From contig CAMAVB010000059.1 of NCBI GenBank assembly GCA_945861465.1, positions 1 through 33,546 of the forward strand: a stretch of 33,546 bases of DNA, written 5' to 3'. The position numbers and the translations under genes were made by a program. Shown piece after piece: positions 5,454 to 14,434 of the stretch. Origin of the DNA: Candidatus Kuenenia stuttgartensis (GTDB lineage: Bacteria; Planctomycetota; Planctomycetia; Planctomycetales; Planctomycetaceae). The notes beneath the pieces are model-generated. The model did no database searches. It was given only the letters and a program-made list of their open reading frames with translations, and was not told the origin of the DNA. Every line of letters begins with the position of its first letter. The stretch's first letter is position 1.

Positions 5454-5918
5454 ATGACACTGGACGAACTGCTGAAACACTACGAGAAGGGCCCTGATCT
5501 GCTCAAAACCGCCGTCGCGGGCGTGCGGGAGGATCAGTTTGACCAGACTCCGGTGCCTGGCAAATGGTCCATTCGCCAGGTTGTGTGCCACATCGCCGAC
5601 TTTGAACCGGTTTACGCTGATCGCATGAAACGTGTGCTCGCAGAAGACAATCCGACAATGTTTGGCGGCGATCCGGACGTCTTTGCCGCCGGACTGCACT
5701 ATGACAAACGAAATGTCCATCAAGAGCTGGAATTGATCTCCGTCGTGCGACGTCAGATGGCCGTCATTCTGAGGAACACCGATGTCGAGGACTTCCAGCG
5801 AACGGGCGTCCATTCTGAAGCCGGTCCTCTGACGCTCGAAACACTTCTGGAACGCATTACCGGCCACATCCCGCATCATCTGACTTTCATCGCAGCCAAA
5901 ATCGCCGCCATGCGATGA
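5454..5918 (+). CDS. DinB-family (DinB_2) metal-binding protein
   Basis: A 154-aa four-helix-bundle protein of the DinB/YfiT superfamily. The typical metal-ligand pattern is visible: H46 in VVCHIADFE, and H138 and H142 in GHIPHHLTFI. The PGKWSIRQVVCHI segment is also characteristic. Members include thiol-dependent transferases (bacillithiol, mycothiol) and DNA-damage-inducible proteins of unknown role; nothing here decides between them. It lies 91 bp upstream of the methyltransferase gene on the same strand, but a functional link is not indicated. Confidence 0.85.
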   Translation: MTLDELLKHYEKGPDLLKTAVAGVREDQFDQTPVPGKWSIRQVVCHIADFEPVYADRMKRVLAEDNPTMFGGDPDVFAAGLHYDKRNVHQELELISVVRRQMAVILRNTDVEDFQRTGVHSEAGPLTLETLLERITGHIPHHLTFIAAKIAAMR

Positions 5919-6009
5919 TCGACAGATTGCCCAGCTTCCCCATCCTGACGTCAGCAAAGATGTCGCGACCACAGTTTCCAGAGATGGAACATGCGGGTAT
6001 TCTGCACCA

Positions 6010-9000
6010 ATGGCCGCAATCACCCCCGAATATCAAACTCTCATGCAGGTGCTGGGATACTCCAGCGCTACCGGAGAGAATACGGGCGGATTGATTCGCG
6101 GTGAACAGCTTCGCGACAACGAGTCTCAAACAGACGGAGACCAACTCTTCGACCGTCGCTTCCGGTATGCCTCAATTCTTGACATGGACAAGCTGGGCGT
6201 TACCGACATTTTCGAGATCAATGGGGCTCCATGCATTTATCTGAAGAGCCTCGCTGCTGATCCAACTCCCCATCAATTGCACACATGGCACCGAACCGCG
6301 TGGAATCATGGTCTGGGGAGGATGCTGTGGATCGTGACTCCGACCAGAGTTCGCGTGCTGAACGCTTTCGCACCGCCGTCGCAGACAATTGAGAAAAAGC
6401 ATCCCGCCGAAGTACTTTCGTGTCTGACGAAGGACCTTGAACAACTTCGCAAGTACGAACTGGATCGTCTGAGCCTGGAGAATGGACAGTTCTGGGCGTC
6501 TAAAGCCGGGAAACGGATTTCTAAGAACACTCGCATCGATGTGGAACTGGCCAAAGATCTGGAACAGGCAGCCAAGCTGCTCGTCAAGCGAGATTGCCGA
6601 CCTCTGCAGGCTCACAGGTTAATGCTGAGGACGCTCTTTACGGCGTACCTTGAAGCTCGCGGCGTGCTGCCGGAGGCGCTTTTCGAAGGCCTGAAGGCGC
6701 AGTCCTTTGCGGAAGTTTTGACACGGACTGGCGAAACCAAAACATTCTTTGAGCGAATGCGGGAAACATTCAACGGCGACCTTTTCCCGCCGCCTCCGTC
6801 AAATGGCGAAGCGGATGAGTCGTACTCGTTCCAGAAGCAGCATCTCGATGTTGCACGAGCGATTGTGACTCGACAGGATTTGACCACCGGGCAGATGTCG
6901 TTTGATTTCTCGCGATACGACTTCGAAGTAATTCCAATTGAGTTGATAAGTTCGATCTATGAGCGGTTCATTTATGCCGGCGATGCAAATAAGGCGAAGG
7001 CACGGGGAACCCATTACACGCCTGTGAATCTTGTGGATCTTGTTCATTCACAGGTCTTCGACGATCACTTGTTTAAGACGCGACTGGGCGACACTCCGAA
7101 AGTACTTGATCTGGCGTGTGGCTCTGGCGTTTTCCTGGTCGATGCATTTCGTCGCCTTGTAGCGCGGCGAATCGCTGCCGGAGAGAAACTTACACGCACA
7201 CTTGTGCGAGACGTACTGTCGCAGCAGATCTTTGGCGTCGATCTCGAGGAAACGGCCATCGAGATTGCGGCCTTCAGCCTTTGTCTGACGGCATTTGAAC
7301 TGGACCCGTCCCCCGGCTCTGTGCATCAGTTGAAGTTCCGCCACAGTCTGAAGGATCGCAATCTGTTTGTCGCCGATGCATTCAGCGATGATACGTTTGC
7401 TTCAAAGCCACAGTTCATAGAAAAACAGTTCTCGATTGTTGTCGGTAATCCGCCATGGAATCGCCCGAAGGGCAAACGCTCGACGTCGGATGTCAGCTCA
7501 AGGTCGCACGTCGAATACTGTGCGAATCAGAAACCACCGGTTGAGTTGCCATACCGTTCACCCATCGATCAGGCGTTCATCTGGCGAATGTGTGACTTCG
7601 CTGCCAAAGGGGCTCGACTGGGGTTGATCCTTGATGCGAAGAACTTCTTCAGTCAGGAAGAGCAGTCACTAAAAGCGAAACGGCAGTTGATGTCGGCGTT
7701 TCGCCCGCGAGTGATGCTGAACCTGTCAGCACTGCACGACAAAAAACTCTTCCCGTCCGCTAAACAACCGGCGATGGTTCTGATCCTGGAAAATGATCGT
7801 CCCGGTAAGAGCGACACGGCGGTCTTTGCCTCTGCCGAACGCAGTGACACGTTTGCGAGGCACGGAATCGTCGAATTGTTTCTGGAGCGGATCAGCCACC
7901 TTCCAGTGTCTCGCGTAATTAGCGAAGACAACTTGCTAAAGATCGCCGCATTCGGCATGCCGCGAGATCGTGCGATTCTGCAACACCTGTTCAATGAATA
8001 CGGAAAACTCACCTCAGTACTCTCATCGTGGGGAACGGCACTTCATCAAGGTTTCATTCGTGGGACAAAGAAGAATCCTGTTCCCGATGGCATCAGCAGG
8101 TTGCGGAAACTTGAAGATGTAATGCTGAGTCGATGTTCTCAGAATGCGATGAAGTTGCCGATGTTCGAATACGAAACGGTGGAACGCGCTCGGGATCTTG
8201 GCATTTATCGCGCTCCCTTATTTCTTGTACAGCAGAGTCTGCAGGATGACCGGCTGGTCGGGGCTCGATGTTGCGATGATATAGCCTACTCGAATGGCTA
8301 TTACGGAATCCCACTGGACTCTGGGGCATGGTATTCTGACTTGCTAAATGCCTTTTTCAATTCGTCATTGGCCACGTATTGTTTCTTTTTGACAGCAACA
8401 AGATTTGGTGTCGATAAGCAGATTGTGACGCAAACTGACCTGGAGCGACTTCCATTCAAGGACGCCAGTAACAAATCTGAACTCAACGAATTGTCGGCGG
8501 CACTGAGAAAGGTCGAGCGGCAGAATGACGCGACGGATTTCTCAGCACTCGACAACGCGGTCTTTCAATTCTACGAGCTTCCCGACTGGCAGCGTGAGTA
8601 CATCACCGACACGGTAAAGTTTGATCTCGACTTCTTCCGCCACGGGAGTTCATCTCAGGCCGTTCTGGCTCCGGACAAGGACGATTTTCAAACGTATTGC
8701 GAAACACTCGTCGGCTATCTCCGAAGTCAACTTTCCGCTGGCGGTTTGAAAATCAATGCAGATGTGATCGCGGGGCTCGAAGATGTCGGAGCTGTCGAGA
8801 TTCGATTTGATCTCGACCGCCATCGCGGCGTTCGAGTTGTTGAACAGAACGAGTTTGACGGAGACAATCACCTGGCAGACTTGCTGCACACGCCTTTAAC
8901 GTCTGGATTTCAGCTTCGTCGGTCGCTGGTTCAATTTGACGATGACCGTTGTCTGATCATCAAGCTGGCTCAGAAGCGATTCTGGTCAAGGGCGCGAGCC

Positions 9001-9051
9001 TATGACGATGCAGATTTGATTGTTGCTGAACTCCTGCGGGCTGAGGAGTAA
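6010..9051 (+). CDS. Large N6-adenine DNA methyltransferase (Eco57I/type IIG-like)
   Basis: A 1013-aa protein with the plan of type IIG or Eco57I-like enzymes. It has a GTHYTP motif (333-338), the SAM-binding DLACGSG (367-373), the catalytic NPPW (480-483), and a C-terminal target-recognition-like part with QTDLERLPFKD. It would methylate adenine in a specific sequence. The N-terminal third resembles the nuclease-like domain of such proteins: TDIFEINGAPCIYLKSL (65-81) has the aspartate and lysine of a PD-(D/E)XK site, but Y stands where the acidic residue of ExK is expected, so cleavage by this domain is doubtful. The next gene, 5 nt downstream, carries an intact DxnExK pattern and may supply the nuclease. 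No helicase or ATPase gene is nearby. Confidence 0.88.
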   Translation: MAAITPEYQTLMQVLGYSSATGENTGGLIRGEQLRDNESQTDGDQLFDRRFRYASILDMDKLGVTDIFEINGAPCIYLKSLAADPTPHQLHTWHRTAWNHGLGRMLWIVTPTRVRVLNAFAPPSQTIEKKHPAEVLSCLTKDLEQLRKYELDRLSLENGQFWASKAGKRISKNTRIDVELAKDLEQAAKLLVKRDCRPLQAHRLMLRTLFTAYLEARGVLPEALFEGLKAQSFAEVLTRTGETKTFFERMRETFNGDLFPPPPSNGEADESYSFQKQHLDVARAIVTRQDLTTGQMSFDFSRYDFEVIPIELISSIYERFIYAGDANKAKARGTHYTPVNLVDLVHSQVFDDHLFKTRLGDTPKVLDLACGSGVFLVDAFRRLVARRIAAGEKLTRTLVRDVLSQQIFGVDLEETAIEIAAFSLCLTAFELDPSPGSVHQLKFRHSLKDRNLFVADAFSDDTFASKPQFIEKQFSIVVGNPPWNRPKGKRSTSDVSSRSHVEYCANQKPPVELPYRSPIDQAFIWRMCDFAAKGARLGLILDAKNFFSQEEQSLKAKRQLMSAFRPRVMLNLSALHDKKLFPSAKQPAMVLILENDRPGKSDTAVFASAERSDTFARHGIVELFLERISHLPVSRVISEDNLLKIAAFGMPRDRAILQHLFNEYGKLTSVLSSWGTALHQGFIRGTKKNPVPDGISRLRKLEDVMLSRCSQNAMKLPMFEYETVERARDLGIYRAPLFLVQQSLQDDRLVGARCCDDIAYSNGYYGIPLDSGAWYSDLLNAFFNSSLATYCFFLTATRFGVDKQIVTQTDLERLPFKDASNKSELNELSAALRKVERQNDATDFSALDNAVFQFYELPDWQREYITDTVKFDLDFFRHGSSSQAVLAPDKDDFQTYCETLVGYLRSQLSAGGLKINADVIAGLEDVGAVEIRFDLDRHRGVRVVEQNEFDGDNHLADLLHTPLTSGFQLRRSLVQFDDDRCLIIKLAQKRFWSRARAYDDADLIVAELLRAEE

Positions 9052-9056
9052 CCATA

Positions 9057-9713
9057 GTGGCAACCGGATTGCCGGGACGACTAAATCGTGATCTTCGCCG
9101 ACAGGCACAGTGGTCCATCGTCGTCACGACCCTGGAGATACTTCATCTGGCATGGCCGGAGACGGTTGCCGACGATCGAGTGACGTTGAAAACTGATGAA
9201 GACAGAATCACCGATGTACTGCGATGGAAGATGGTCGAGGCAAAACGAAAACGGAAGGTGCCCTCAGAAATCCGTTTTGAACGCGAACCGCAGTCGGATC
9301 GCCCTGAAGATAACACGCCGCTCGGACTGATCGATATCAAGGTTGCTTACACATGGAATGAAGAAACCTATCTGACGATGGAGTGCAAACGAATCCGAAG
9401 CACTGACAACGATCTCGCACTGAAATATGTGCGGAACGGCATCAAGCGATTTGCATCCGGCAAGTACAGTGCCGGTCACTCCTTCGGAATCATGGTTGGC
9501 TATGTGATTTGCGGCAATCGCAGCCTGTGTATCGACCGAGTCCGCAAGGTGCTAGAAAAAGAACCCCGAACGGGAACCGGGTTTGACCCGGACTTTGGCT
9601 GGCAGACAGACCATTCCGCAGTGAACGGCCAGGAACTTCAAAAATCCCGGCACGCTCAAAGACAATTCGGAAAGAGCATCGAATTGCTTCATGCATTTCT
9701 GCAGCTTGAGTAG
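9057..9713 (+). CDS. Putative PD-(D/E)XK nuclease partner of the methyltransferase
   Basis: A 218-aa protein without a family I can name. It starts at GTG, with GAGGAG (9043-9048) inside the last codons of the methyltransferase gene, so the two are almost certainly co-translated. Residues D93 (GLIDIKV), E109 and K111 (LTMECKRI) have the spacing of a PD-(D/E)XK nuclease active site on adjacent beta strands. They are followed by a conserved-looking YVRNGIKRFASGKYSAGHSFGIMVGYV stretch (124-150). No membrane segment or signal peptide is present. The likely role is restriction or a related defence function with the upstream methyltransferase. Alternatively it could be an accessory specificity protein; the nuclease call is inference from a short motif. 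Confidence 0.7.
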   Translation: MATGLPGRLNRDLRRQAQWSIVVTTLEILHLAWPETVADDRVTLKTDEDRITDVLRWKMVEAKRKRKVPSEIRFEREPQSDRPEDNTPLGLIDIKVAYTWNEETYLTMECKRIRSTDNDLALKYVRNGIKRFASGKYSAGHSFGIMVGYVICGNRSLCIDRVRKVLEKEPRTGTGFDPDFGWQTDHSAVNGQELQKSRHAQRQFGKSIELLHAFLQLE

Positions 9714-9780
9714 TCGTTTGAGCGTGCTCATCTGCGATCTCCTGCGGTCAGCAGCTGGCATTAATTCGAGCAACGGGCAT

Positions 9781-10938
9781 TCAACGTTCCCGCAGTGCCG
9801 TGATGATGTTCAAACGTACGGCGCGGATGGCAGGCAGGATTCCGCCGAGCAGGCCCATGACGAGGGCAAGCATCACGCCTTGCGCGAGAACGCGCGGGCC
9901 GAAGCGGAATGAGAATGTGATTTCGCTGAACTGATTGGAAGTGCCCGTCGAGAGTCCATTGAATGGCAGAGTTGCCAGACATCCGATCAGACCGCCAAGA
10001 GAACACAGGACGACCGATTCGAAGAGAAATGACAACAGGATGCTGCCTTGGGGGAAGCCCAAAGCGCGCAGCGTTCCGATTTCGCGAGCACGACTTGCCA
10101 CGGCGGCGTACATCGTGTTGGCCGCCGCGAACATGGCTCCAAAAATCAGGAAGCCGGCAATGATATAACCGATGTACTGGACGGCATTGGCCTGGTTCAT
10201 CTGATCTTCAAAATACTTTGTTTCGCGGATGGCATTCAGTTGAAACCGTTTGTCATCTGCCAGGAGCGCCACCAGGGCATCCCGCTGTTCGGGCGATTCC
10301 GCGCGCAGACAAACGGCACTGACGGCGGCCGGCGTTTTTCGAGCGATCGTGAGGTCTCGCAGGTCCGTCCAGACCTCTGACTCTGCCGCACTTCCGGCGG
10401 CTTCGTAATAACCCACGACCTCAAAGTACTGGCGATTCACTTCAATTTTCTCGCCGATTGCCAGGTTTTCAAATCGGGCTGCCATACTTCGGCTGGTCAT
10501 GGCTTCGAATTTTCCGGGCTCAATGTCACGTCCCGCGACGATCCGGAAGCCGGGTCTCAAAGTGCGACCGACACTTTCCAGTCCGCGCACAATCAGATTG
10601 ACAGTACCGCCGTTGTTGCGACGCGGCTTTGTCAGAATTGTGACAAACTCCACGCTGCATTGAGGCTGCCCTTGTTCATCTTTTGCGATACCCGGCAGCG
10701 ACGCAACTTCGCGAGCCACTTTCTGTTCGATGCCGCTGCCGATCTCGTCGGTGGCACCTTTCCTCAGCACGATCAGGTCGAGTTCATGCCCGGTGACTTT
10801 CAATGCGTATTGCAGGCCGTCCGTCAGTCCAAAGCACAGGACGGAGGCCCAGACAACCAGCCCTGTACTGACCACGGTCAGCAGCGTTGTCATCCAGCGC
10901 ACGCGGAGATTGCGAAGATTGTATTTGGCAGGAATCAT
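9781..10938 (-). CDS. ABC transporter permease, FtsX/MacB type (second permease)
   Basis: A 385-aa inner-membrane permease. One helix near the N terminus (about 15-37) precedes a large periplasmic domain (MacB_PCD-like, about 40-250). Then come three helices of the FtsX domain, including the signature ASRAREIGTLRALGFPQGSILLSFLFES. It is the last gene of a four-gene minus-strand operon, 27 bp after the other permease. Two different permeases of the same length imply a heterodimeric MacB-like exporter working with the ATPase and adaptor upstream. Substrates of such systems include lipoproteins, peptides and antibiotics; none is indicated here. Confidence 0.88.
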   Translation of the reverse strand: MIPAKYNLRNLRVRWMTTLLTVVSTGLVVWASVLCFGLTDGLQYALKVTGHELDLIVLRKGATDEIGSGIEQKVAREVASLPGIAKDEQGQPQCSVEFVTILTKPRRNNGGTVNLIVRGLESVGRTLRPGFRIVAGRDIEPGKFEAMTSRSMAARFENLAIGEKIEVNRQYFEVVGYYEAAGSAAESEVWTDLRDLTIARKTPAAVSAVCLRAESPEQRDALVALLADDKRFQLNAIRETKYFEDQMNQANAVQYIGYIIAGFLIFGAMFAAANTMYAAVASRAREIGTLRALGFPQGSILLSFLFESVVLCSLGGLIGCLATLPFNGLSTGTSNQFSEITFSFRFGPRVLAQGVMLALVMGLLGGILPAIRAVRLNIITALRER

Positions 10939-10965
10939 GACTCAGTGACTTCACTCAGAGGAATA

Positions 10966-12123
10966 TCAGGCAATGCGTCGAAGACCATCAATGACGGACA
11001 TCTGAGCGGCTCGAATCGCCGGCACAATGCCGCTGATGAGTCCCAGAACTGCGGCAGCGATCAGGCCATAGCCGATCCACGGGCCCAGCATTTCCATGAC
11101 TGTAAACGGGAAGAACTGCGGCATCAGACGGTTCATGCCCTGCAGAAACAGACATCCCATCCCGACACCGAGAAATCCTCCCAGCATCGCGATGGTGCAG
11201 GCTTCTCCGAGGACCATAAAGAGTACTCTCGATCGTGGAAAGCCGATCGCCTTGAGCACCGCAATCTCTGTCACGCGTTCCCGCATCGCCATTGCCATGG
11301 AGTTTGCAGTCACCAGCGAAAGTGAAAAGACAACTGCCAGTCCGATGTTGCGAATCAGCACCTGCACATTGCCCAGCATATCCACGAACATCTGAAAAAA
11401 GGCGGCCTCCGTCTGACTTCGAGTCGGCGTGTCAGAACTGCCATACTTGTCGTCGATGGATTTGATGACGGTGGGAATGGAGTCTGGACTGGAGATACGG
11501 GCGAAGATCGTTCCGGAGTTGTCGATGTTCGCGTAGTCCTGCTGTCTCAATCCCTCGTTCAGATAATCCCAGTGGAAGTAGAGCGAATCTGTGTTTTTCG
11601 GTGAATCAAAGATCCCGCTGATCTCAAGGTCCAGGTCAAACGGATAGATCGCGCCCTTCAATGGGACTCGATCGCCGACTTTCCAGCCACGCCGTTCGGC
11701 AATACGTCGATCCAGCACGCATCCCTGTCGATTCGTTTTGAACGCCTCAAGCTGCTCCGGCGGGATCGTGTACTCTGGCCACACATCAAATACAGATTCC
11801 GGATCTGTGGCAAACTGAGCGAACGGCATTTGTTCATCCTGATAGGAACCTCCGAACCATGCGAATGGGACAGCTGCCGCAACGAATTTTGTCGATCGAA
11901 CTTCATCGACACACGATATCGGAAGTCGCCCGCTGAATCCCTGAATGTTCATGACGACAATTCTGTTTGCCTGGGCCGCACTGTTTTTCCTAGTTTCCTG
12001 AGATTCCAGAAAACCATACAGCACCGTCATCAGCGCCAGGCTGAAACCAACAGACATGATCGTCAGGAGGCTGCGAATCGGATTTCGGCGGATGTTTCGC
12101 CAGATGTATTTGAATGTCTTCAC
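10966..12123 (-). CDS. ABC transporter permease, FtsX/MacB type (first permease)
   Basis: A 385-aa permease with the same architecture as its downstream neighbour: an N-terminal helix following RNIRRNPIRSLLTI, a periplasmic domain, and a C-terminal FtsX domain with RERVTEIAVLKAIGFPRSRV and IRAAQMSVIDGLR. The start codon is GTG and its first four bases (12120-12123) overlap the stop of the ATPase gene (GTGA), so translation is coupled. It probably pairs with the second permease as the membrane part of an efflux or lipoprotein-export complex. Confidence 0.88.
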   Translation of the reverse strand: MKTFKYIWRNIRRNPIRSLLTIMSVGFSLALMTVLYGFLESQETRKNSAAQANRIVVMNIQGFSGRLPISCVDEVRSTKFVAAAVPFAWFGGSYQDEQMPFAQFATDPESVFDVWPEYTIPPEQLEAFKTNRQGCVLDRRIAERRGWKVGDRVPLKGAIYPFDLDLEISGIFDSPKNTDSLYFHWDYLNEGLRQQDYANIDNSGTIFARISSPDSIPTVIKSIDDKYGSSDTPTRSQTEAAFFQMFVDMLGNVQVLIRNIGLAVVFSLSLVTANSMAMAMRERVTEIAVLKAIGFPRSRVLFMVLGEACTIAMLGGFLGVGMGCLFLQGMNRLMPQFFPFTVMEMLGPWIGYGLIAAAVLGLISGIVPAIRAAQMSVIDGLRRIA

Positions 12124-12854
12124 TGCACAGTTGCCCTTGTTCGGTTGTCGGTGACTTCGGAAACCAGCAGACCCTTTTCCAGATGCAGAATACGCCTTGC
12201 CCGATCCGCTGCGTTCGGATCATGCGTGACCATGACGATCGTCTTGCGAAACTCCTTCTCCGTATTGAGTCGGTGCATCAAGTCCAGAATTTCGGCCGCA
12301 GACTTTGCGTCCAGGTCGCCGGTAGGTTCGTCGGCGACAAGCAGTGTCGGGTCTGTCACGATCGCCCGGGCAATCGCGACGCGTTGTTCCTGACCTCCCG
12401 ACAGTTGCCGCGGATAGTGATCCATCCGGTCCTGCAGCCCGACCACTTCCAGTGCAGCCTTGACGTGGTCATCGCGGTCACGTCGAGACAACGACGTCAG
12501 CGTCAGCGGCAGTTCGACATTTTCATACGCGGTCAGCACCGGGATCAGATTGTACATCTGAAAAATGAAGCCCACGTGCCGCGAACGCCATTTGGACAAC
12601 TCGCCTTCAGAAGATTGGCCAAGGTTCTGACCGCAGACGATTACGTCACCCGAAGTCGGTCGATCCAGCCCCGCAATCAGATTCAGCAGGGTCGTCTTGC
12701 CGGAGCCCGAAGGCCCCATCAGCGCCAAATAGTCTCCTGTTGACAATTCCAGATTGATTCCGCTCAGGACGGGAATCGTGAGCTGATCACGGTGGAATTC
12801 CTTGCACACATCTCGCACGACGACGACGGTTTCATCCGCATTCAGGTTGGACAC
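12120..12854 (-). CDS. ABC transporter ATP-binding protein (MacB/LolD-like)
   Basis: A 244-aa ATPase that powers the two FtsX-type permeases downstream. The Walker A motif GPSGSGKTT (47-55), the ABC signature LSGGQEQRVAIARA, Walker B LLVADEPTGDLD and the switch histidine in MVTHDP are all intact. The VLSGINLELSTGDYLALMG start and LRD-type spacing are typical of the LolD/MacB ATPase group. Translation starts at GTG with GGGAG about 8 nt upstream. The adaptor gene lies 287 bp upstream on the same strand, and a heptad-repeat array sits in between. Confidence 0.92.
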   Translation of the reverse strand: MSNLNADETVVVVRDVCKEFHRDQLTIPVLSGINLELSTGDYLALMGPSGSGKTTLLNLIAGLDRPTSGDVIVCGQNLGQSSEGELSKWRSRHVGFIFQMYNLIPVLTAYENVELPLTLTSLSRRDRDDHVKAALEVVGLQDRMDHYPRQLSGGQEQRVAIARAIVTDPTLLVADEPTGDLDAKSAAEILDLMHRLNTEKEFRKTIVMVTHDPNAADRARRILHLEKGLLVSEVTDNRTRATVQ

Positions 12855-12944
12855 TCAATAGCTCCCGTGTTGACAATTCTTCAGTGTGTATCACACGCCG
12901 GATGTTTGAAGCAGGGTGTATGCAGCGTCAGCGGAACACACCTG

Positions 12945-13130
<186 letters not shown>

Positions 13131-13141
13131 ATCGATGCCCG

Positions 13142-14434
13142 CTACTGGGCCGTCTTCACCAGCATCCCTTCTTTGAATTCTTTCGGAGGACTGACAACGA
13201 CTTTCTCACCGCCGCCCAGCCCCTTCAGGATTTCGGTGCGATCTTCCTTTTCTTCACCAACCTCCACAATCACCTCCTTAAGTCGATCGTCGCTGGAGAC
13301 GATCCAGACAAATCTCTTGCCGCCCTCATCGTACAGGGCGTCATTCGGGCAGAAGATTCGCGGCTTCTCGTTTTGGTTCTGCTCGTCGGTCGCTGACCCC
13401 AGAAAGTAAACAGTACTGCTCATGTCCGGAAACAGACGATCGTCCGCGTCCAGAATCTCAACGAGCACCTTGACCGTTGCCCGAGCCCGGTCACCCATCG
13501 GAATGATCTTGCGAACTTTGCCCTGGTATCGGCGATCAGGCACTGCATCAACGGCCACTTCAGACTGCTGTCCGGCAGTGACGCGACTGATAAAATCTTC
13601 CTTGACATCACAATCCACTTCCAGATGATCGAGGTCCGCAATGGTGACGACAGAACCACGTCCCGAAGCTTCTCCCATTCCGCCTGGCATGATCGATTCA
13701 CCCAATTCCGCATCTTTCGAAATCACAGTCCCCGCAAACGGAGCACGTACAAACATATTTTCCACAAGCTGCTCCGCCTCCTTAACGCGGGCCTCGGCCA
13801 GCTCAAGAGCCGCTTCCAGGGAAGTCTTGCGAGCCACGGCGGCTTGATGCTGAAACTCGTCTGCCTCAAATTCGGCAGCGGAGATCGTTTTTGCGGCGAA
13901 AGATCTTTGCGACCGTTCGAGTATTTTCTGAGTCCGCCGAATTTCCACATCCTGCTCCAGCAACTCACTGCGGGATCGAGCGGCCGTGGCTTTGACTGCA
14001 GCCAGGGATGCATCCAGATCTGCGTGTTCCAGCATCGCCAGAACATCTTGAGCTTTGACCTTGCTGCCTTCTTCGACATTGACCTGCTCAATCCGCCCCG
14101 TAGCCCGCGCGCCAATCCGAGCCTGTTGCCGCGATTTGACATAACCAGTGGCGACGACAGTGGCGTCTGCCGAGCGTCCTGTTTCGACACTGACAATCGA
14201 AACTCGTACCTCAGGCTTTGGTCGGACGGACTCCAGCATGCGGTCCATGTTCGGAAGCCAGCCGTTGGTTTGAGCAAGGAACGCTCCACCTGCCAACAGG
14301 ACGGCCACCAGAATCACAAAAAACAGGAATCGAAGCAATCGTCCAAAAAACGACCGACGAGGCACCGCATCACCTCGCGGAATTCGGAGTCTTGTCAGCG
14401 CATCAGACGAAGCATTTTGGCTGGCGACCGTCAT
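13142..14434 (-). CDS. HlyD/MacA-type efflux periplasmic adaptor
   Basis: A 430-aa membrane-fusion protein linking the inner-membrane transporter to the outer envelope. A basic N-terminal stretch precedes a single membrane helix (about 32-52). Next come a barrel-sandwich (lipoyl-like) half with VVATGYVKSRQQARIGARATGRI, a coiled-coil hairpin (about 145-215), then the returning lipoyl half (VRAPFAGTVISKDAELGE) and a beta-barrel domain. It is the first gene of the minus-strand efflux operon with the ATPase and two permeases. A heptad-repeat array lies between it and the ATPase gene, so downstream expression may be lowered or separately driven. Confidence 0.9.
   Translation of the reverse strand: MTVASQNASSDALTRLRIPRGDAVPRRSFFGRLLRFLFFVILVAVLLAGGAFLAQTNGWLPNMDRMLESVRPKPEVRVSIVSVETGRSADATVVATGYVKSRQQARIGARATGRIEQVNVEEGSKVKAQDVLAMLEHADLDASLAAVKATAARSRSELLEQDVEIRRTQKILERSQRSFAAKTISAAEFEADEFQHQAAVARKTSLEAALELAEARVKEAEQLVENMFVRAPFAGTVISKDAELGESIMPGGMGEASGRGSVVTIADLDHLEVDCDVKEDFISRVTAGQQSEVAVDAVPDRRYQGKVRKIIPMGDRARATVKVLVEILDADDRLFPDMSSTVYFLGSATDEQNQNEKPRIFCPNDALYDEGGKRFVWIVSSDDRLKEVIVEVGEEKEDRTEILKGLGGGEKVVVSPPKEFKEGMLVKTAQ

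Follow-up and report, generated by a model that had tools for sequence, protein, structure and literature searches.

Genes A and B, which lie next to each other on the forward strand of contig CAMAVB010000059.1 of Candidatus Kuenenia stuttgartensis (assembly GCA_945861465.1), probably constitute an ATP-independent two-subunit restriction-modification (R-M) unit. The window analysed here is this one whole contig of 33,546 nucleotides (nt), taken from a genome of 8.2 Mb in 474 contigs. Protein A, a large type IIG-like methyltransferase, would read a DNA site via its C-terminal recognition region and methylate adenine there, and the small protein B would, without using ATP, cut unmethylated foreign DNA at this site or close to it. 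A probably recruits B, with a catalytically dead PD-(D/E)XK-like domain in its N-terminal part as the docking platform. The original prediction had proposed that the cleavage function moved to a separate subunit and left a degenerate nuclease domain behind. Such a shift is supported by the lack of the catalytic acid in the A proteins paired with B, by the intact motif of unpaired relatives, and by the predicted type IIG-like fold of the degenerate domain. The predicted PD-(D/E)XK fold of B, the invariance of D93, E109, and K111, and the co-occurrence of both genes elsewhere likewise turned out in favour of the original prediction.

The segment of A from TDIF to IYLK, for which a Tyr in place of the acidic catalytic residue had been claimed, corresponds to residues 65-79 with Tyr77 at that place. 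Among 34 paired A proteins, none carries Asp or Glu at residue 77 or 79 (numbering of the window protein), and 23 have Tyr77 (the A protein of the window itself has Y77 and K79), whereas D...(E/D)xK is intact in all 19 unpaired full-length relatives of at least 900 amino acids (17 with ExK and two with DxK, e.g., PDYCFRIGGVRKFFVEAK). The latter are encoded in further genomes of the phylum and in one viral contig, and none of them has a B gene beside it. As judged from the alignments, a cutting site in the A chain and a neighbouring B are mutually exclusive within this sample. The exact register of the segment is uncertain: motif spacing puts Y77 in the acid's place and K79 in that of the lysine, whereas in the profile alignment T65 and K79 face the D and E of intact domains, and neither of these registers would leave a working triad.

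Residues 1-200 of A are predicted by AlphaFold2 (AF2; predicted local distance difference test, pLDDT, 90) to adopt a fold like that of type IIG nuclease domains. In the structural comparison with VIA-align, in which all Z scores are below 8, the nuclease domain of BpuSI is the best match (Z 7.3, root-mean-square deviation (rmsd) 3.6, 126 aligned residues), with 9y1l (restriction-endonuclease-like, 7.2), HsdR of EcoR124I (7.1), DrdV (6.5), and BsaXI (5.6) among the further rows. A profile match of the domain to intact IIG nuclease domains was obtained with hhalign (E 2e-4, probability 47). Mean identity in alignment windows of the close relatives amounts to 68-78% over A residues 41-140 versus 31-48% in the recognition region (641-760). 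Due to this conservation, a structural role of the degenerate segment is suggested rather than decay.

For B, single-sequence and profile searches of Pfam, NCBIfam, PADLOC, PHROGs, and the PDB sequences returned nothing, and nine diverse homologues plus one more produced only chance-level matches against Pfam. The AF2 model (window protein and ten relatives, pLDDT 85) predicts the alpha-beta-beta-beta-alpha-beta core of a PD-(D/E)XK nuclease, composed of helix 48-64, strands 73-78, 92-97, and 105-113, helix 118-134, and strand 143-150. The pattern D93/E109-x-K111, which had been noticed in the single sequence, falls on the second (D93) and the third core strand (E109 and K111). It is invariant among 40 distinct homologues, as is Y124, although overall identity drops to about 12-25%. 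Together with E48, the residues D93, E109, and K111 would form the sole working, metal-dependent nuclease site of the unit. Top rows of VIA-align for B are OkrAI (Z 6.8, rmsd 4.5, 141 aligned residues), BglII (6.5), and BamHI (6.1), followed by NgoMIV, McrC, PaqCI, NucC, EcoT38I, Can2, and PspGI, with Cdn1 also among the rows; the structural comparison of B refers to these families. The unrelated Rep15 reaches Z 6.0, and Foldseek alone returned OAS and polymerase mu as top rows, which is uninformative. B is thus a nuclease by prediction, an assignment that relies on how the core elements are ordered and on the residues that never vary, and not on Z values alone.

Regarding a separate cutting subunit, the complementary pattern of kept and lost sites in A and B backs the original prediction, with one nuance. 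Profile comparison of B with intact IIG nuclease domains shows no relation, which makes an excised N-terminal IIG domain unlikely; instead, B was probably recruited from a different branch of the PD-(D/E)XK superfamily. On two plasmid records (L124 5492-6202 and L125 5483-6157; L numbers denote our loci), B homologues are labelled "Fis family transcriptional regulator" and are apparently misannotated.

Co-occurrence of the two genes was found nearly without exception. A scan of genome contigs with A revealed nine close relatives of 57-65% identity, all in Planctomycetes, and B (50-60%) is situated behind each of them. Searches from B identified distant homologues elsewhere in the phylum, which sit directly behind a distant A. 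B also occurs on plasmids of Mameliella, Sagittula, Agrobacterium, Bradyrhizobium, Paracoccus, Pseudosulfitobacter, Rhizobium, Allorhizobium, Pseudomonas, and Burkholderia, and on an IncP plasmid. In all 12 of these plasmid loci that were examined, A is located directly upstream of B, a few of them with A in two pieces or incomplete. Searches from A in viral contigs gave 16 loci, of which 13 are family members (some of them duplicate records), with B behind A in 10; one of the remaining three is cut by the contig end, and the other two, L049 and L051, are taken up below. Pairwise divergences of A and B are closely correlated over 34 pairs (r = 0.95; none of 5000 permutations exceeded 0.29), which shows joint inheritance, not contact.

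In some members A deviates from a single frame. On pRSB223 (L126 2367-5476) and a Burkholderia glumae plasmid (L128 2074-5237) A consists of two successive open frames, and it looks as if the methyltransferase and the recognition part were separate genes. In L018 (6965-9445), from a metagenome-assembled genome, A is broken into several frames next to an intact B, which may reflect decay or an assembly error.

Both genes were acquired together. A was found in none of the 17 congeners compared, and DNA similarity to the two closest congeners ends at 5914-5922 and restarts at 9774-9778. The intervening segment (approximately 5.92-9.78 kb) comprises A and B and no other gene. A search for the empty site in the congeners yielded these borders, the flanks not being adjacent there. 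As far as can be judged from these comparisons, A and B are a horizontally acquired, mobile two-gene unit. The genome contains three A genes (contigs C59, i.e., the window, C26, and C152), each followed by B. The pairs of C26 (L025; A 6361-9555 and B 5624-6445, both on the reverse strand) and C152 (L024; A 10582-13605 and B 13602-14309, both on the forward strand) are distantly related to that of the window.

Features of the locus are compiled in Table 1. The 5 nt between A and B read CCATA, and the GTG start of B as well as the position of its ribosome-binding site inside A agree with the original prediction. In most pairs, the stop of A and the start of B overlap or are within a few nt. A scan for promoters and terminators gave no signal above chance, and no A-B fusion was seen by open-frame lengths. 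A matches Pfam N6_Mtase (2.9e-19), Eco57I (1.7e-14), and MmeI-type (9.9e-11) models, and its best PADLOC model is REase_MTase_IIG (type IIG, single-chain; 2e-46). The motifs DxACGSG and NPPW, typical of N6-adenine methyltransferases, are conserved among the paired A homologues.

Table 1. Features of the A-B locus (window positions) and upstream genes at related loci (positions within the respective locus)
Feature	Position	Strand	Basis or remark
Gene A, type IIG-like N6-adenine DNA methyltransferase with recognition region	6010..9051	+	1013 amino acids, ATG start, stop TAA 9049-9051
Degenerate PD-(D/E)XK-like domain of A, residues ~44-118	6139..6363	+	AF2, VIA-align, hhalign
Former active-site segment of A, residues 65-79, TDIFEINGAPCIYLK, Tyr77 in place of the acidic residue	6202..6246	+	Alignment; intact counterpart PDYCFRIGGVRKFFVEAK
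S-adenosylmethionine-binding motif DLACGSG of A, residues 367-373	7108..7128	+	Alignment of A proteins
Catalytic motif NPPW of A, residues 480-483	7447..7458	+	Alignment of A proteins
Shine-Dalgarno-like GAGGAG, likely ribosome-binding site of B	9043..9048	+	Inside gene A (sequence)
Gene B, small PD-(D/E)XK nuclease subunit (predicted)	9057..9713	+	218 amino acids, GTG start
Glu48 codon of B, conserved acid opening the first core helix	9198..9200	+	39/39 homologues covering the position
Asp93 codon of B, predicted catalytic	9333..9335	+	40/40 homologues
Glu109-Cys-Lys111 codons of B, predicted catalytic ExK	9381..9389	+	E 40/40, K 40/40
Upstream XRE-type gene	L010 6524-6976		
Upstream XRE-type gene	L015 6545-6943		
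Upstream XRE-type gene	L016 6604-6981		
Upstream XRE-type gene	L017 6043-6522		

The main rival to a nuclease steered by A is that the two genes form an ordinary type II pair. In this case B would be a free-standing enzyme that recognises its site by itself, A would only be the companion methyltransferase, and the dead domain of A would be a remnant. Classical type II systems are likewise laid out as separate R and M genes, and OkrAI, BglII, BamHI, and NgoMIV, the leading structural rows of B, are free-standing type II enzymes. Yet the dead domain of A is strongly conserved and not decaying, and in different phyla one and the same B family goes with one subfamily of large methyltransferases of type IIG-like build. 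The comparison of L014 and L016, where the recognition region is down to 49% and B is still at 73%, points in the same direction but is only suggestive. Considering these observations, we regard a plain type II pair as unlikely.

Considerably less probable is a defence other than classical restriction, with B acting as, e.g., a nickase or non-specific nuclease that is activated once A meets foreign DNA. The effector nucleases NucC, Can2, and Cdn1 do appear among the structural rows of B, but the unit contains no sensor or signalling gene, and a complete methyltransferase with a recognition region is explained more simply by classical restriction. Methylation by A for gene regulation, with B as a nuclease for repair or maintenance that linkage has preserved, would suit the chromosomal place among housekeeping genes but is hardly credible given the patchy distribution, the absence from the 17 congeners, the occurrence on plasmids and viral contigs, and the acquisition as a pair.

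Several observations weigh against A and B as a two-subunit R-M unit. Plain Foldseek gave no match at E <0.001 for either the A domain or B, and the VIA-align Z scores of 6.8 (B) and 7.3 (A domain) are in a range where they may reflect no more than a common arrangement. The paired A proteins form one clade, so that the pattern of lost and kept sites may trace to a single ancestral split, and the cases are not independent. Two full-length A homologues have a degenerate site and no recognised neighbouring B, namely L049, which lies close to the end of its contig and has a transposase-like gene as neighbour, and L051. Furthermore, the window pair is set among housekeeping genes, outside any defence island; its neighbours encode MMPL, DinB, an FtsX/MacB ABC exporter, SRP54, and TrmD.

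Compared with known systems, A resembles type IIG enzymes such as Eco57I, BpuSI, MmeI, and DrdV in its similar length and in the order of N-terminal domain (predicted to be nuclease-like), N6-adenine methyltransferase, and C-terminal region. Unlike in these enzymes, the nuclease site of A lacks the acid, and a second gene provides the predicted intact PD-(D/E)XK protein. Split IIG-like systems are already known: in AchA6III and OspHL35III the methyltransferase has no PD-ExK motif and the endonuclease is on another polypeptide. Cutting there relies either on a fusion of PLD nuclease and translocase or on a GIY-YIG nuclease accompanied by a separate translocase (Blow et al. 2016, PMC4752239). 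The A-B pair shares with them the methyltransferase without nuclease motif and the separate nuclease gene, but its nuclease is of the predicted PD-(D/E)XK type and the unit has no ATP-dependent translocase. This motor-free PD-(D/E)XK partner sets the pair apart from the split systems described. BcgI-type enzymes likewise consist of two polypeptides with a IIG-like large subunit, but there it is specificity that resides on the second polypeptide, while the large one keeps the nuclease (PMC3874165); the second polypeptide of the A-B pair is a predicted nuclease.

PglX/BrxX of BREX and DrmMI of DISARM match A weakly over the methyltransferase core, at scores well short of the NCBIfam cut-offs. 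The NCBIfam PglX models score 25-36 bits against cut-offs of 400-900, and no PglZ, ATPase, or helicase partner is located beside the pair; both BREX and DISARM were rejected. No helicase, ATPase, specificity, or translocase gene was found in the unit, which is flanked by the DinB and FtsX/MacB genes; the original prediction had set the pair apart from BREX and DISARM on the lack of a helicase or ATPase, and this distinction holds. No paper on a motor-free PD-(D/E)XK pair was found in the literature searched, the scope of which did not include subscription journals and REBASE, and REBASE may hold unnamed members of the family. We would give an even chance to the more far-reaching proposal that the pairs represent an undescribed, widespread class of two-subunit restriction systems that need no ATP, in which the IIG nuclease domain lost its catalysis and was turned into a docking module for a detachable PD-(D/E)XK subunit, and one recognition region steers methylation as well as cleavage by the separate protein.

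Some pairs are accompanied by further genes. In four relatives from Planctomycetes, A is directly preceded by an XRE-type helix-turn-helix (HTH) gene (mutual identity 40-57%), which is absent at the window copy. XRE-type regulators are common in R-M systems, and the upstream gene is likely a controller. On proteobacterial plasmids (L042 3370-3846, L045 3355-3831, and L129 1711-2175), a different gene family of about 155 amino acids is located ahead of A, with a slight overlap; it appears MerR-like by eye, and the L042 member has no Pfam match. An obligatory third component upstream was considered and rejected, since XRE genes occur in the four planctomycete relatives and other small HTH-like genes in proteobacterial pairs, but the window pair has neither; such genes are optional. 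Directly behind the pair of Thalassoglobus neptunius (L010 10786-16149) a 1787-amino-acid protein with helicase and small methyltransferase domains is encoded, and in L020 (6184-9159) an A-B pair is directly followed by another methyltransferase-like protein, a single chain whose ExK motif appears to be intact.

Taken together, the pair most likely represents an anti-virus restriction system of wide distribution, which is misfiled or overlooked in current catalogues. None of the Pfam, NCBIfam, PADLOC, and PHROGs libraries searched contains the nuclease family of B, and its members, where annotated, are called "hypothetical" or even, as in the plasmid records above, transcriptional regulators. 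Due to the position of the B family outside these libraries, a label "type IIG enzyme" on A would misplace the cutting. If it is true that A steers B, recognition and cleavage would reside on separable proteins without an ATP motor. Such a system would offer a direct way to ask how a dead nuclease domain controls its partner, and would provide exchangeable parts for new site-specific cutters.
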